Origin: an uncultured Bacilli bacterium
GTDB taxonomy: Bacteria > Bacillota_I > Bacilli_A > RF39 > UBA660
NCBI GenBank assembly: GCA_944363915.1
Contig: CALVVR010000011.1
Coordinates: 1 to 40,179 of the forward strand
Length of the DNA: 40,179 bases
Direction of reading: 5' to 3'
The notes under the pieces were generated by a model. That model did no database searches and was not told the origin of the DNA. It saw nothing but the letters and a program-made list of their open reading frames with translations. Below are positions 3,251-40,179 of the stretch, in pieces. Numbering within the stretch: position 1 is the stretch's first letter; every line of letters starts with the position of its first letter. The position numbers and the translations under genes are program-made.

Positions 3251-4669
3251 ATGAAAAAACAAAGTATTTGGTTAAAAGATTTTAAAAATAACGTAACTAT
3301 TTTAAATAAAGATATTGATTGTGATGTTTTAATTATCGGTGCAGGAATTACCGGATTAAGTACAGCATATCACTTGATCAATAGTAATTTAAAAGTAGTA
3401 GTCGTTGAAAAAGATGAAATTGGAAACGATGTCACAGCAAGAACAACTGGTAAAATAACTTATTTACAAGAATTAATTTATACAAAATTAAAAAAAGAAT
3501 TAAATGAAGAAACAAGCAAAAAATATTTAGAATCCCAATTAGAAGCAATTAATATTTTAACTAGTATTATAAAAAAAGAAAAAATCGAATGCGATTTAGA
3601 ACAAGTTAAATCATTTGTTTTTACTAAAGATAAAAAAGAATTAAAAAAATTAAAAGAAGAAAAAGAATTATTAGAAAAATTTGGTGTTAATGTTTTAGAT
3701 TATAATAATGCAATTGGGGTTGAAGATACTTATGTCTTTCATCCAATTAAATATTTAATGAAATTAAAAGAAATAATCTTAAATAATAATATTCAAATTT
3801 ATGAAAAAACTAATATAATTGAAATAAAAAAAGAAGATGAATATGTTTGTTTAACCGAAAATAATAAAATTAAAGCTAAAAAAGTTATTTTAGCTTGTCA
3901 CTATCCTTTTTTCTTATTTCCCCTACTTTTTCCCATTAAAGGGCATTTAGAAAAATCATATGTTGCAGCCATAAAAAATAAAAATAGAAAAATGTCGATG
4001 ATAAACACTAAAATACCAACGACATCCTTAAGATATCATCACGATTATATGATTTATTTAAATAATTCTCATCCTATTTCAACTAACAATAATGATAAAG
4101 ATAATTTTGATAGTTTAATCAATACAACTAAAAAACTAGGGAATATCGATTATATTTGGTCTAATCATGATATTATAACAGTTGATCATTTACCAATTAT
4201 AAGTAAAATAACTGATAATTTATTAATTGGAACTGGGTTTAATACCTGGGGTATGACTAATGGAACACTAGCTGGTAAAATATTAAGTGATATTATTCTA
4301 AACAAAGAAAATAAATATACTAAATTATTTTCTTTGAAACGTCAAAAATCTTTAAATACATTTGTAAATATTTTAATTGAAGTATTAAGAAATGGTAAAA
4401 GTTTTACAATAAATAAAATTATTAAAAATAAAAATTGGTATTCTTCAAACTTAGAATTTAAAAAAGATGATAGTGATGATATTGCTATTTATACTGACGA
4501 TAATAATCAAAAACATATTGTTTATAATAAATGTCCGCATTTAGGTTGTAGTTTAATTTTTAACGAATTTGAAAAAACATGGGATTGCCCATGTCACGGT
4601 TCAAAATTCGATATCGATGGTAATTGCTTAAGAGGTCCAAGTAAATATAATATTTCTTATAAAAAATAA
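3251..4669 (+). CDS. FAD-dependent oxidoreductase with C-terminal Rieske [2Fe-2S] domain (YhfW-like)
   Basis: 472 residues in two modules. The N-terminal DAO/DadA-type FAD domain begins DVLIIGAGITGLSTAYHL (dinucleotide-binding Gly at 30, 32, 35) and ends near 360 with the LLIGTGFNTWGMTNG motif that closes around FAD. The C-terminal Rieske domain has ligands C428, H430, C446 and H449 in CPHLGC and CPCHGSKF. C433 and C448 are placed to form the usual stabilising disulfide. The architecture matches Bacillus YhfW. The likely role is cytoplasmic oxidation of an amino acid or amine-like substrate with electrons passed through the Rieske cluster; substrate unknown. A GGTGATATT ribosome site precedes the ATG. 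It converges on the deacetylase gene across a shared terminator. Confidence 0.85.
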   Translation: MKKQSIWLKDFKNNVTILNKDIDCDVLIIGAGITGLSTAYHLINSNLKVVVVEKDEIGNDVTARTTGKITYLQELIYTKLKKELNEETSKKYLESQLEAINILTSIIKKEKIECDLEQVKSFVFTKDKKELKKLKEEKELLEKFGVNVLDYNNAIGVEDTYVFHPIKYLMKLKEIILNNNIQIYEKTNIIEIKKEDEYVCLTENNKIKAKKVILACHYPFFLFPLLFPIKGHLEKSYVAAIKNKNRKMSMINTKIPTTSLRYHHDYMIYLNNSHPISTNNNDKDNFDSLINTTKKLGNIDYIWSNHDIITVDHLPIISKITDNLLIGTGFNTWGMTNGTLAGKILSDIILNKENKYTKLFSLKRQKSLNTFVNILIEVLRNGKSFTINKIIKNKNWYSSNLEFKKDDSDDIAIYTDDNNQKHIVYNKCPHLGCSLIFNEFEKTWDCPCHGSKFDIDGNCLRGPSKYNISYKK

Positions 4670-33570: not shown

Positions 33571-36159
33571 CTATTGAATAATTTTCTTGATTAATTTATA
33601 TAATTCAACAATTACTAGAGGAGTTAGCGATAATAAGATAATTATCATCCACTCAAAAGCTGTAGGAATTTGTAACAACAAGAATGTAGCAATCGGATCA
33701 ATATAGATTAATAATAATAAAATTATTAAAGATATAAACATAGCCCCATATAAATACCAATTACGAGCATGTTTTTTTGAAAAGAATGAAATATCAGGTG
33801 AATGTTGATTAAGTGAATGAATAATTTGGGATAAAGATAAAGTAATAAATGCCATAGTAACACCTTCATTAGCACTATCTTGATAACCAATATAATAAGC
33901 TATTAAAGTAATTATGGAAATAATAACACCATGGAATATTACTCTTCCAATTAATCCTTTTTCAAATAAGGTTCCCACTTTAACAGGTTTTTTATCCATA
34001 ATATTGCTAGAAGCCGGATCTACACCTAATGCTAAAGCGGGAATAGTGTCAGTAACTAAGTTAATTATTAAAATATGAACAGCTAAAATAGGAGTACCTA
34101 TATTTGCTACCATTGCTACAAATATAGTCAAAACTTCTGATATATTACCAGCCAATAAATACTGTATAACTTTTTGAATGTTTGAATAAATTCTTCTTCC
34201 TTCTTTAATTGCATATTCGATAGTTGCAAAATTATCATCTAATAAAATCATATCTGATGATTCACGAGCAACATCAGTTCCACCTTTACCCATAGATATA
34301 CCAATATCAGCGGCTTTTAAAGCTGGTGCATCATTAACACCATCTCCTGTCATGGCAACTATATTTTGATTTCTTTGAATTGAATTAACAATTCTTAATT
34401 TATCATTAGGACTAATTCTGGCAAATACCGATGTTTTTAAAACAACTTTATCTAATTGTTCATCGGTCATTTTATTTAAATCATTACCTGAAATAGCTAA
34501 ATCTCCTTCTTGATAAATATTCAGTTGTTTAGTTATAGCTAAAGCTGTTTCAACATGATCTCCTGTTATCATAATAACTTTAATACCAGCTTTGTGGCAT
34601 GTTTCAATGGCTTGTTTAACTTCATCTCTTGGTGGATCAATCATACTTAGAATACCAATAAAAGTTAATTCTTTTTCAATATCGTCCTCTTCAGGAATTT
34701 GTTTAACATTTCTTTTAGCAAAAGCTAAAACTCGCATCGCATTTTTAGAAGAAGAAATACATAAATTGTTAATTTTATCAATATCATCGTAATTAATGTC
34801 TTTTTCTTCCCCATTAACTAGTATTTTTGTACAAAGTGGTAATATAGAATCAATTGCTCCTTTAGTATAAATGACATAATCGTCAAATTTATTAACCGAT
34901 GTCATTCTTTTTCTAACCGAATCAAAAGGAAGTTCTAAAACACGAAGATATTTACCAATAATATCAACTCCTTGTTTTTTAGCAAAGGATAAAAGAGCAA
35001 TTTCAGTTGGATCACCGATTTCTTTATCATCATCTAATGTTGCATTATTACATAAAATAGCAGCATACAACAATTCTTTTTCTAAAACTATATCATTGTC
35101 AGTTTTAACTTTATTATTGATAAAATCTTCATATAGAGCAAATTCTTTAACAGTCATCTTATTTTGAGTTAAAGTTCCAGTTTTGTCTGAACAAATAACA
35201 GTTGTACTACCTAATGTTTCAACAGCTGGTAACTTTCTAATTAAGGCATTTTGTTTAGCCATTCTTTGGACTCCTAAAGCCATAACTATTGTAGCAGTAG
35301 CGGGTAACCCCTCTGGGATTACGGAAATAGCTAAAGATATAGCAATCATTAAAACCGTAACAAAGTCTTTACCATATAATAAACCGATTATAAAAATAAT
35401 AATACTTATAATAATTCCTGCAATACTTAAAACTTTGCCAATTTTATTTAATTTCTGTTTTAATGGTGTATCTAAATCATCTGTTTGGTCTAACATATGA
35501 GCAATTTTACCAACTTCAGTGTCCATTCCAATAGCTACAACAATACCTTTACCAGTCCCATAAGTTACAACTGTCGAAGAAAAAGCCATATTAATACGAT
35601 CACCTAAAACAGTATCTTCATCTAATATTGTCCTATTATCTTTATACGATGGGACTGACTCTCCAGTTAAAGCTGCTTCAGAAATTTGTAATTGTGATGT
35701 TTCAAATAATCTTAAATCAGCCGGAACAATATCACCAGCTTCAATAAAAACAATATCACCTATTACTAATTTTTTCGCAGAAATTACTTCTTTTTTTCCA
35801 TTTCTAATAACCTTAACATTGGGTGCACTAATACTTTTCAAGGCAGCAATGGCATTAGCAGCTTTCTTTTCTTGAACAATACTTATTATAGTATTAATAA
35901 AAATTATCATTAAAATAACAACACCTTCAGCTGTTTCACCTAAAAGAAAAGAAATAATAGAAGCAATAAATAAAATTATAATCATTGAATCTTTTAATTG
36001 TTCAAAAATCATCCTCAAAATACTTTTAGACTTTTTTTGACTTAATTCGTTATAACCATATTTTTCTAAACGCTTGGTAGCCTCCTCAAAAGTAAGACCA
36101 TTTAAACTTGTTTTTAATTCATTTAAAATATCCTCTATCTTTTTTGTATAATATTTCAT
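33571..36159 (-). CDS. Calcium-transporting P-type ATPase (P2A, SERCA/PMR1-like)
   Basis: 862 residues. N-terminal cation ATPase domain (LTFEEATKRLEKYGYNEL), A domain with TGES, phosphorylated D325 in ICSDKTGTLT, KGA in the nucleotide domain, and GDGVNDAPALKAADIGISMG in the P domain. Ten membrane helices are expected. TM4 has VIPEGLPA and TM6 has NLVTDTIPALALG, the residues that form Ca2+ site II in PMR1/LMCA1-type pumps. It exports Ca2+ (or possibly Mn2+) against ATP hydrolysis. A single gene with an extended -10 promoter. Confidence 0.93.
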   Translation of the reverse strand: MKYYTKKIEDILNELKTSLNGLTFEEATKRLEKYGYNELSQKKSKSILRMIFEQLKDSMIIILFIASIISFLLGETAEGVVILMIIFINTIISIVQEKKAANAIAALKSISAPNVKVIRNGKKEVISAKKLVIGDIVFIEAGDIVPADLRLFETSQLQISEAALTGESVPSYKDNRTILDEDTVLGDRINMAFSSTVVTYGTGKGIVVAIGMDTEVGKIAHMLDQTDDLDTPLKQKLNKIGKVLSIAGIIISIIIFIIGLLYGKDFVTVLMIAISLAISVIPEGLPATATIVMALGVQRMAKQNALIRKLPAVETLGSTTVICSDKTGTLTQNKMTVKEFALYEDFINNKVKTDNDIVLEKELLYAAILCNNATLDDDKEIGDPTEIALLSFAKKQGVDIIGKYLRVLELPFDSVRKRMTSVNKFDDYVIYTKGAIDSILPLCTKILVNGEEKDINYDDIDKINNLCISSSKNAMRVLAFAKRNVKQIPEEDDIEKELTFIGILSMIDPPRDEVKQAIETCHKAGIKVIMITGDHVETALAITKQLNIYQEGDLAISGNDLNKMTDEQLDKVVLKTSVFARISPNDKLRIVNSIQRNQNIVAMTGDGVNDAPALKAADIGISMGKGGTDVARESSDMILLDDNFATIEYAIKEGRRIYSNIQKVIQYLLAGNISEVLTIFVAMVANIGTPILAVHILIINLVTDTIPALALGVDPASSNIMDKKPVKVGTLFEKGLIGRVIFHGVIISIITLIAYYIGYQDSANEGVTMAFITLSLSQIIHSLNQHSPDISFFSKKHARNWYLYGAMFISLIILLLLIYIDPIATFLLLQIPTAFEWMIIILLSLTPLVIVELYKLIKKIIQ

Positions 36160-36305: not shown

Positions 36306-36379
36306 GCCGATATAGTTTAGTGGTAAAACAGGTCCTTGGTAAGGATCAGCGGACAGTTCAATTCTGTCTTTCGGCACCA
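36306..36379 (+). tRNA. tRNA-Thr(GGT)
   Basis: Acceptor GCCGATA/TTTCGGC (one T-T mismatch), D stem GTTT/AAAC, anticodon stem GGTCC/GGATC with loop TTGGTAA (anticodon GGT), T arm GACAG-TTCAATT-CTGTC, discriminator A and encoded CCA. Reads ACC/ACU. It has its own promoter and a GAAA-loop terminator. Remnants of accessory genes follow. Confidence 0.93.
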
Positions 36380-36780: not shown

Positions 36781-36832
36781 AAAAAGAGCAAAAACACCAG
36801 TGTTACTACATATTGGTATAATTGCCCTTTTT
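36781..36832 (-). terminator. Terminator of the DUF4143 ATPase gene
   Basis: Outer stem AAAAAGGGCAA (36832-36822 on minus) with TTGCTCTTTTT (36791-36781), one G-T pair, plus an inner ACCA/TGGT pairing. It overlaps the stop codon at 36831-36833. Confidence 0.65.
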
Positions 36833-38039
36833 ATTCTTTATTTAATAACCAATCAACTACATTGATTTTTGTTATTCCATCATAATCGGCTTCCATATCC
36901 ATATCAAATGTTATTAAATATTTTGGATAATGATCTCCTGTTTTTTGTAATGATTTTAATTCCCTTTCTAATACTTTTTCATCTCTAACTGTTAATGCTA
37001 CTTGATAATATTTTAGACCATCTCTATTTTCAGCAACGAAGTCAACTTCCAAATCATCAACCTTACCAACATATACTTTATAACCTCTTCTTAACAGTTC
37101 AAGATAAACTATATTTTCTAATATATGTCCCATATCACTATCTGCTTTTTTGCCTAATAAATAACTTCTTAATCCTTGGTCTACAGCATAGTATTTGTAA
37201 TCTCTAGCAAGTAAGTTCTTACCTTTAACATCAAATCTCTCAGCTTTATATATTAAGAAACTTTCTACAAAAGCAGATATATATTTTTCAACAGTATGAT
37301 TACTTGTAGACATTCCCTTACTTGTTAATGTATCACTTATTTTTTTTGTTGATATTGGACTACCTATGCTATCAAATATAAATTTTAATACACTTTCTAA
37401 TAACATTTTATCTGTTATATTATTTCTTGTTATTATGTCTTTATAAACTATTGTAGTAAATATTCCTTCTAAGTATATATCTAAATCATTAGGATTATCT
37501 TGAAGTATTGATATATTACCTGGCATACCACCATTTCTCATATAATCCAAAAAGTATTCATAACGACTTTTATCAGAACTATTAAAAGCACTTAGATATT
37601 CTTTGAAAGATAATGGTAACATTTTTATTTCTACATATCTTCCTGATAATAACGTTGCTAATTTACCAGATAACATATAAGCATTTGAACCTGTTATATA
37701 TACATCAACATTTTTCTTTATATATAAACTATCAACAGCTTTTTGAAATTTAGGAACATTTTGAACTTCATCTAAGAAAACATAGTATTGTTTTTTTGAA
37801 TCTATTTTTTTATTTACATAATCATATAGTTCCTTATAATCTGAAAAATTAAAGTCAGCATCTTCAAGATTGATATTTATTATTTGTTCATCTTTAACAC
37901 CAGTTTCTTTTAAATAATTTATAAATAATTCAAATAATGTAGATTTACCACATCTTCTTATTCCAGTAACAACTTTGATTAAATCTTTATCTTTAAACCT
38001 TTTTAATTGTTCAAGATACTCTGTTCTTTCGATCATCAT
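36831..38039 (-). CDS. AAA ATPase with DUF4143 domain
   Basis: About 402 residues; starts possible at 38045 (GTG), 38039 or 38036 (ATG), all behind GAGGTG. N-terminal AAA_14 ATPase: Walker A VTGIRRCGKST near 25-35, Walker B YVFLDEVQN around 90, sensor segment VYITGSNAYMLSG. The C-terminal DUF4143 domain (HTVEKYISAFVESFLIYKAERFD, then the nuclease-like EVDFVAENRDG segment near 360). The last part, E-x-D-F-V-A with LELLRRGYKV before it, resembles a PD-(D/E)XK core. Function unknown; the family is common in accessory regions. The promoter carries a large inverted repeat. Confidence 0.85.
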   Translation of the reverse strand: MMIERTEYLEQLKRFKDKDLIKVVTGIRRCGKSTLFELFINYLKETGVKDEQIININLEDADFNFSDYKELYDYVNKKIDSKKQYYVFLDEVQNVPKFQKAVDSLYIKKNVDVYITGSNAYMLSGKLATLLSGRYVEIKMLPLSFKEYLSAFNSSDKSRYEYFLDYMRNGGMPGNISILQDNPNDLDIYLEGIFTTIVYKDIITRNNITDKMLLESVLKFIFDSIGSPISTKKISDTLTSKGMSTSNHTVEKYISAFVESFLIYKAERFDVKGKNLLARDYKYYAVDQGLRSYLLGKKADSDMGHILENIVYLELLRRGYKVYVGKVDDLEVDFVAENRDGLKYYQVALTVRDEKVLERELKSLQKTGDHYPKYLITFDMDMEADYDGITKINVVDWLLNKE

Positions 38040-38055
38040 TTTCACCTCTGCTATA

Positions 38056-38376: not shown

Positions 38377-39555
38377 ATGACAATAGAAATTTTACCTAAT
38401 TATTTTTTAAAAGATGATAAAACATTTGCTTTAGATGAAGCAATTAAATTATCCGGTAAGATAGCTGGTGTATGTTATGATAAAGAAGGCTTTAAACATT
38501 TAGAAAATGAACCGGAAGAAAAAACTTTAAGACGTGTTAATATGACTTTAAATAATGGCCATCACAGTGTCTATGACCATATTTTAATAAACTTTAATTT
38601 ACAAGATGTTCCTAAAATATTAGCCATGATATTAAACAATGAACACCAATATACAACTAGTGAAAAATCAGCTAGATATACGCCTTTAGTAAAACAAAAC
38701 AATTCAATTATAACGGAAACCGAAGAAAAATTATATAATAAATGGTTGGATATTTTCAAAATAAAAATTAAAGATAAATATGGCTATATTTATAATGATA
38801 ATAAAATTCAAAAACTAGCCCAAGAAAATGCCCGATATTTAATAACCGTTTTTATGCCAACCCAAATGATTTACTCTACTACCTTAAGGCAAATTAATTA
38901 TCTAGCTTCTTGGATGCAAAAATATATCGAACAAGCTAAAACACCATTCGAAAAAAAACTAGCTTTTTATATGCAAGAATTTTTAGATAATTTAGCTAAC
39001 ATCAATGTTCTTGAAGCAAGATTGATGCAAAACGATAAAGAGCGCAGTTTATCCTTATTTAATTCCAACTTAGAAAATCAAGAATATTTTGGCGATGTTT
39101 ATTCAACTGTATATAAAGGTTCTTTCGCCCAATTAGCGCAAGCTCAACGCCATCGCACCATCGACTATCAGATAGAAATGCTAAAAGAAAAAGAATATTA
39201 TATCCCACCAATCATTGCTGATGACCAAACTTTAGTTGATGAATGGCTTAATGATATGGAAAAAGTAAAAGCAGTCAATCCACAAGGAGAAATTATTAAA
39301 ATTAAAGAAAGAGGAACATATGAAGCTTTTATTTTAAAATGCAAAGAACGATTATGTACAGCTGCCCAATTAGAAATAATGTTGCAAACTAAAGAAACCT
39401 TATTAAAATATAAAAAAGCATTAGAAACAACTAATAATCCACTTGCTAAAGATATTCAAAAATATACTCATGGCGCTAGGTGTACATTTCCTGATTTTCA
39501 TTGTCCAACAGATTGTCAATTTAAAGAAGGAAAAACCTTAGTTAGAAAAATTTAA
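38377..39555 (+). CDS. thyX: Two-lobed FAD-dependent thymidylate synthase (ThyX family)
   Basis: 392 residues, far longer than standard ThyX (about 220-250). Lobe 1 (about 25-183) keeps the fold landmarks GHHSVYDHILINF and TTSEKSARYTP, with EHQ where RHR is expected, and ends NARYLITVFMPTQMIYSTTLRQINYL, the classic C-terminal ThyX pattern. Lobe 2 (about 245-345) holds AQLAQAQRHRTID, with RHR at 258-260 but no following RHRx7S serine. The C-terminus has C369, C376 and C380 in ARCTFPDFHCPTDC, possibly a metal site. It should methylate dUMP using folate and FAD. No thyA is seen. The long form is known in Firmicutes, but its biochemistry is less clear. Confidence 0.85.
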   Translation: MTIEILPNYFLKDDKTFALDEAIKLSGKIAGVCYDKEGFKHLENEPEEKTLRRVNMTLNNGHHSVYDHILINFNLQDVPKILAMILNNEHQYTTSEKSARYTPLVKQNNSIITETEEKLYNKWLDIFKIKIKDKYGYIYNDNKIQKLAQENARYLITVFMPTQMIYSTTLRQINYLASWMQKYIEQAKTPFEKKLAFYMQEFLDNLANINVLEARLMQNDKERSLSLFNSNLENQEYFGDVYSTVYKGSFAQLAQAQRHRTIDYQIEMLKEKEYYIPPIIADDQTLVDEWLNDMEKVKAVNPQGEIIKIKERGTYEAFILKCKERLCTAAQLEIMLQTKETLLKYKKALETTNNPLAKDIQKYTHGARCTFPDFHCPTDCQFKEGKTLVRKI

Positions 39556-39598
39556 AAAAGTATTATATTTCCTTATCAGAAAGTATAATACTTTTTTT
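39554..39598. terminator. Bidirectional terminator after thyX
   Basis: AAAAAAGTATTATA (39554-39567) pairs perfectly with TATAATACTTTTTT (39584-39597). It overlaps the thyX stop and also lies just past the 3' end of the minus-strand tRNA-Arg fragment. Confidence 0.88.
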
Positions 39599-39603
39599 AT
39601 CAA

Positions 39604-39648
39604 TGGCGTCCTCGAGCAAAATCGAACTGCTGACTTACAGCTTAGGAG
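39604..39648 (-). other. 3' half of tRNA-Arg(CCT), candidate attachment site (att) scar
   Basis: Reading from the anticodon loop, every element fits a tRNA: loop CTCCTAA (anticodon CCT), stem GCTGT, variable AAGTC, T arm AGCAG-TTCGATT-TTGCT, acceptor CGAGGAC, G, CCA (39604-39606). Upstream of the loop nothing pairs: no matching anticodon stem, D arm or acceptor GTCCTCG. Such a clean 3' half is the displaced copy left when an element recombines into a tRNA gene. The full tRNA should lie to the right, beyond the element. Confidence 0.75.
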
Positions 39649-39673
39649 AAAGCAAGTTAAAAATTCAAAAAGT

Positions 39674-39722
39674 GTTTGATTTTTTTTGTTATAAAATTCT
39701 GTAATTATAACATAAAATCAAC
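39674..39722. repeat. Imperfect long inverted repeat near the att scar
   Basis: GTTTGATTTT...TGTTATAA (39674-39694) is mirrored by TTATAACA...AAAATCAAC (39705-39722), with a 10-nt centre. No T run follows on either strand, so it is a poor terminator. Possibly an integrase or regulator site. Confidence 0.45.
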
Positions 39723-39838
39723 ATTTTTTTCAGTAAAATAAACTTTACCTTATAAAATAATCAAATATATCTATTAATTTTTATATAATATTTATATCAT
39801 ACTATAATATTCTTCCAAATATTAAAATTATATTCTTT

Positions 39839-40138
39839 CTAATCACTCACTCTAATATTTATACCATCAACATTTTTATATACTCTTTTTTCATTTTTAG
39901 AAACTTTTTTCATAATTTCATCTTCTAAATCAAAACCTAACATTTCTGACAATCCCATTAAATAAATTGCAATGTCAGCAAGTTCTTCGTTTAAATCATC
40001 TTTTTTCTTTCTATAGGCTTCAAAAGCTTCAGCTACTTCACCATATAAAAAACAAAATTCTTTTTCTACATTTGTTGTATTAAAACCTTTATTTATTTTG
40101 TTTTGCCAAATATCTTTTTGGACTTGTTTTAAATTCAT
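39839..40138 (-). CDS. MazG-like nucleotide pyrophosphohydrolase
   Basis: 99 residues, one all-alpha MazG/dUTPase-type domain. Metal ligands fit EExxE-type patterns: E34-x2-E37 (LYGEVAEAFEAYRK) and E52-x2-D55 (NEELADIAIYL). It hydrolyses a nucleoside triphosphate to monophosphate and pyrophosphate; substrate unknown. Stand-alone small MazG proteins are frequent in phages and integrated elements, which fits its place beyond the tRNA-Arg scar. Strong GGAGGTAAAA ribosome site. The 190 bp downstream of it, up to the scar, contain only the inverted repeat. Confidence 0.85.
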   Translation of the reverse strand: MNLKQVQKDIWQNKINKGFNTTNVEKEFCFLYGEVAEAFEAYRKKKDDLNEELADIAIYLMGLSEMLGFDLEDEIMKKVSKNEKRVYKNVDGINIRVSD

Positions 40139-40179
40139 TTTTTACCTCCATATTAAATTCATTATAATAATTTATTACT

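Follow-up and report, generated by a model that had tools for sequence, protein, structure and literature searches.

Islands targeted to tRNA genes, as collected in Islander (PMC4383910), have a complete tRNA gene at one end, a displaced 3′ fragment of the same kind of tRNA at the other and an integrase gene between them, with the crossover centred on the anticodon. CIMEs of the ICE and IME families (PMC5704250) keep attL and attR and have neither integration nor transfer genes, and an integrase-less island in tandem with an integrase-bearing element is the arrangement described as CIME accretion. Tycheposons (PMC10872708) are cargo islands with a tRNA border and a tyrosine recombinase. A different outcome is seen in the tRNA-dependent lysogeny of actinobacteriophages (Guerrero-Bustamante and Hatfull 2024, PMC10865867), where a tyrosine integrase acts at a core of ∼8 bp, the host tRNA is not rebuilt and a tRNA of the same isotype is carried on the element. 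Which came first, and how common this is outside of actinobacteriophages, was left as an open question in that paper. A similar tRNA substitution is reported in a Sinorhizobium study, and apart from these two papers our literature search for replacement tRNAs on non-phage elements found nothing.

The sequence analysed here (the window, 40,179 bp) is the entire contig C11 of a draft assembly (46 contigs, 1.14 Mb), and it therefore ends on the right where the contig does, not at an arbitrary cut. A lone tRNA fragment close to this edge is, with a probability of about 0.85, the attR of an integrase-less, CIME-like island in the anticodon loop of tRNA-Arg(CCT). The island itself is an ordinary kind of tRNA-inserted island. 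It resembles those in Islander in having a complete tRNA at one end, a displaced 3′ fragment at the other and an anticodon-centred crossover, but differs in that no integrase was found in it and the two 3′ halves are divergent. It is like the CIMEs in that attL and attR are both retained, integration and transfer genes are absent (in the contiguous copy of a sister genome, G007; a gap remains in the window's own genome) and the G007 copy stands in tandem with an integrase-bearing element, but it lies in uncultured Bacilli and uses the tRNA-Arg(CCT) anticodon loop; other elements may mobilise it. With tycheposons it shares cargo and a tRNA border, but no tyrosine recombinase was found in it. 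Unlike the elements of the phage system, it rebuilds its tRNA; the likeness to that system, in the tyrosine integrase, the core of ∼8 bp, the tRNA that is not rebuilt and the same-isotype tRNA on the element, belongs only to neighbouring elements, which look integrative and partly conjugative, not phage. The comparison, made with draft genomes that are mostly MAGs, defines exactly where an island from an uncultured gut lineage ends, and shows that relatives can lead from a single tRNA half at the edge of a contig to its missing piece.

The displaced tRNA half and the chromosome beside it

The features of the locus are listed in the table. The fragment, which reads CTCCTAAGCTGTAAGTCAGCAGTTCGATTTTGCTCGAGGACGCCA on the minus strand, aligns from the anticodon loop onward with the complete tRNA-Arg(CCT) of G004, a genome of the same genus (94% over 47 nt, E=1.7e-14), in agreement with a preliminary description of the fragment as a 3′ half starting at this loop. 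Neither Rfam nor ARAGORN calls a tRNA at this position, which is therefore a tRNA half and not a whole gene, and when the 5′ half found on contig C23 (see below) is joined to the fragment ARAGORN folds a normal tRNA-Arg. The last 42 nt of the fragment occur once in the 1.14 Mb genome. An identical 3′ end had been expected elsewhere, but an exact-copy search of the genome returned no second copy of the fragment. As tRNA-Arg(CCT) is split in several relatives, a group I intron was also considered, and rejected. Rfam finds none in the anticodon loop of the fragment; in the relatives, protein genes with an integrase among them lie between the halves, and the element brings its own tRNA.

Table. 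Features at the right end of the window and in the adjoining chromosome.
Feature	Position	Strand	Remarks
P-type ATPase, conserved right flank	33571..36159	-	79% identical to the gene after the tRNA-Thr(GGT) of G001
tRNA-Thr(GGT)	36306..36379	+	Right-flank landmark of the tRNA-Arg locus in the genus
thyX-type thymidylate synthase	38377..39555	+	First gene beyond the island, on the chromosome side
Bidirectional terminator hairpin	39554..39597	.	On the chromosome side, between thyX and the displaced half
Displaced 3′ half of tRNA-Arg(CCT)	39604..39648	-	Anticodon loop to CCA
8-bp crossover core, CTCCTAAG	39641..39648	-	Anticodon loop plus one base; common to the junctions seen at the site
Element-side attachment arm (attR)	39649..39693	-	Resembles the integrase-side arms of G105 and G171 and the MazG-side arm of G007
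MazG-like nucleotide pyrophosphohydrolase gene, 99 aa	39839..40138	-	Last gene of the island; PF12643, 38 bits
Exact 77-bp overlap with contig C46 (3071 bp)	40103..40179	.	C46 is the next piece of the island

The terminator noted earlier beside the fragment is real, with folding energies of -14.1 kcal/mol (z -5.2) on one strand and -16.1 kcal/mol (z -6.1) on the other, and the hairpin can serve both thyX and the tRNA fragment. An inverted repeat proposed near 39700, within the element, is no better than shuffled sequence (z -0.8). Among the 40 genomes searched, the only other full-length homologue of thyX is in G022, which belongs to another genus (68% identity, different context). The tRNA-Thr(GGT) is identical in sequence to the copies in G001 and G009, and is inverted relative to the neighbouring P-type ATPase gene when compared with G001. 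Between the junction and these two right-flank landmarks lie thyX and an AAA_14/DUF4143 gene. The ATPase predicted from the latter (36831-38045) matches the PADLOC candidate defence family PDC-S01 with 520 bits and lies in a variable stretch outside of the island.

The two ends of the island and the empty site

The preliminary description had the element include the MazG gene and leave by the right edge of the window, and the exact overlap between C11 and C46 bears this out. C46 carries genes for a UDP-glucose dehydrogenase, a PHP protein and a NUDIX protein, and a partial radical-SAM gene. It shares 92% identity over 2.8 kb with the body of an island that is contiguous in the sister genome G007, and the last 476 bases of the window are 91% identical to the MazG (right) end of that island. 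The MazG-like gene has a counterpart in G007 with 97% identity.

On contig C28 of G007 the island is bordered by two 3′ halves, at 4179 and 13118. From the first half, the gene order is radical SAM, NUDIX, kinase-like, an unknown gene and DegT aminotransferase, followed by APH, NUDIX, PHP, UDP-glucose dehydrogenase and MazG, after which come the second half, Wzy_C and tRNA-Thr(GGT). The order MazG, arm, core and tRNA half seen in the window recurs in G007 at 91% DNA identity. In a comparison of G007 with the intact tRNA locus of G009 and G015, the homology that begins at the second half, at its core, reaches 1.45 kb into the native flank at 81-82%; on the other side it covers 1.8 kb at 85%, up to a broken 5′ half. 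Both of these empty-site alignments terminate at the 8-bp core. The right flank is the same in G001, where tRNA-Thr(GGT) is followed by a P-type ATPase gene. Directly beside the island in G007, in tandem and sharing the core, is an integrase-bearing element.

The only complete tRNA-Arg(CCT) gene in the window's genome is on contig C23 (C23:808-884). Its upstream sequence, with an HD-domain gene and tRNA-Thr(CGT), is native flank that is 86-90% identical in G004, G010 and G011, and homology to the island-free sister G010 (1896 bp at 90%) ends at the 3′ end of the tRNA. Beyond this point is a radical-SAM gene, in a stretch of 809 bp that shares 95% identity with the left end of the island in G007. 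The displaced half had been taken to mark the far end of the element, with the complete tRNA at the other; the C23 tRNA followed by island-end homology and the empty-site comparison in G007 both agree with this. Long stretches of the island occur within the genome only on C23, C46 and C11, and joins between these three contigs were tested. The far end of C46 and the left end of C23 both fall in the radical-SAM/NUDIX region, with different partial genes and no exact overlap, and closure of the island in the window's genome is therefore inferred from the G007 copy. The two partial radical-SAM genes, at C46 2785-3071 (L057) and C23 1-667 (L040), differ, which suggests strain variants or a rearrangement within the island.

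The last ∼45 nt of the rebuilt tRNA had been expected to be identical to the fragment; instead, the 3′ half on C23 differs from it at 10 of 45 positions, mostly in the T stem. The T stem beside the radical-SAM end varies among island copies with nearly the same flanks, and the island-free G010 has the same T stem as the C23 tRNA. A complex history is therefore possible, and conversion of the tRNA gene or repeated exchange may lie behind the divergence.

From these comparisons, a tyrosine integrase would have inserted a small genomic island at the anticodon loop of the tRNA-Arg(CCT) gene. A crossover at the core would have fused the 5′ half of the host with a 3′ half borne by the island, forming the complete tRNA now on C23, and would have left the original 3′ half of the host behind at 39604-39648. 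The island would then start at 39649, directly after the core, a position close to the earlier estimate of about 39650. Its cargo (MazG, UDP-glucose dehydrogenase, PHP, NUDIX and radical-SAM genes) is probably a sugar or nucleotide modification cassette.

Attachment arm, integrase content and alternative readings

The 45-bp arm next to the core gave alignment scores of 17 with G007, 13 with G105 and 10 with G171, compared with a maximum of 9 for 3000 random 45-mers from the window. Against G105, the arm region forms one 84-bp alignment (E=3.5e-10). The arm follows a tyrosine integrase gene by ∼200 bp in G105 and G171; this slot is occupied by the MazG gene in the window and in G007. No integrase is present among the gene families read between the two 3′ halves of the contiguous G007 island, nor in the parts of the island on the contigs of the window's genome, and the integrase gene predicted next to the rebuilt tRNA was found in neither. 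Since the copies read contain no recognisable integrase or transfer gene yet keep an arm of the integrase type, the island is best described as a CIME-like derivative. If it moves at all, it would be moved by elements that have an integrase and share its site.

The island could instead be autonomous in the window's genome, with its integrase in an unassembled stretch between C46 and C23. The inexact join between these contigs, both of which stop within the radical-SAM/NUDIX region, leaves room for such a gene, and an uncharacterised integrase is present at the start of contig C24. However, no integrase gene lies between the 3′ halves of the contiguous copy in G007, and the integrase of the relatives adjoins the attR arm, at the place taken here by MazG. 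A search of the window's genome (G000) for relatives of the G007 integrase at E<=1e-30 returned only one, on C8, with 29% identity and an internal stop. Autonomy is therefore considered unlikely. The 10 differences in 45 positions between the fragment and the complete tRNA, together with the missing integrase, would also suit a relic of a past insertion or a partial tRNA duplication, with ordinary chromosome continuing to the right. This is very improbable, as G007 repeats the MazG, arm, core and half, its 3′ half sits where the intact locus of G009 and G015 continues, and the arm is of the type that adjoins integrases.

Elements that break the tRNA and supply a copy of their own do occupy the same core (G001, G006, G007, G013, G014, G081, G171 and CHK189), and the element in the window might be one of them. 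Integration of that kind, in which the tRNA is not rebuilt, is what the neighbouring elements show, but the only complete tRNA-Arg(CCT) in the window's genome has the native 5′ half and the native upstream flank, and neither an orphan 5′ half nor a mobile copy of the tRNA was found in the assembled sequence. There is hardly any likelihood that the window's element belongs to this class, and the CIME-like island that rebuilds its target is preferred.

tRNA-replacing elements at the same core

At least five genomes of the genus (G001, G006, G007, G013 and G014) have a native 5′ half that ends at or near the core, decayed in the case of G007. What follows is an element end by which the tRNA is not restored, and some hundreds of bases further into the element there is a tRNA-Arg(CCT) that is complete and different. 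A like arrangement is seen in two genomes of other genera, G081 and G171, with the 5′ half and the element-type tRNA of G081 on separate contigs. A complete element of this class is present on one contig of Candidatus Faecimonas gallistercoris (DVGU01000024; L097, 5891-11186), measuring 5,288 bp from core to core. Its order is 5′ half, own tRNA-Arg(CCT), replication-initiator-like, TetR and ABC-type genes, a truncated integrase gene, the arm and the 3′ half, and the two outer halves join into a proper tRNA. On contig C32 of G001 (L041, 14718-15240) the native 5′ half is followed by an element end, an element-type 5′ half, a second element end and a complete element-type tRNA. Here a like element appears to have inserted into the tRNA of the first, forming a nested insertion; a second 3′ half of the element type was looked for in this arrangement and not found.

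A related integrase-bearing element carries a TraG/D coupling protein (Pfam) and a DarB-like helicase/methylase. No members of the integrase family were found in the IMG/VR viral collection, and none among the plasmids of PLSDB. With the coupling protein, this makes integrative elements likelier than phages, and the tRNA-replacing elements are more likely integrative and partly conjugative. Close relatives of the integrase family are in MAGs named as uncultured Bacilli, Tenericutes, Mycoplasmatota and Candidatus Faecimonas. The window's genome belongs to the same family as these MAGs, and to the same genus as G001 and G007.

The balance tips slightly towards the anticodon loop in this genus being a docking site common to tRNA-rebuilding islands and to integrase-bearing, non-phage elements that replace the tRNA, with the latter carrying the island of the window. 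This would mean that tRNA-dependent integration extends outside of phages, and that the host relies on the tRNA of the element. tRNA-Arg(TCT) may also read AGG. As rebuilding and replacement of the tRNA are found side by side at one site, the question left open in PMC10865867 could be approached in this genus.

On contig C19 of G010 (L050, 5344-6669), the predicted product of a gene beside the intact tRNA-Arg(CCT) has 441 aa, with an N-terminus that resembles a signal peptide and a membrane anchor at the C-terminus. The protein includes a ubiquitin domain that is close to eukaryotic ubiquitin and a CBM_X2 region, and the contig is bacterial.
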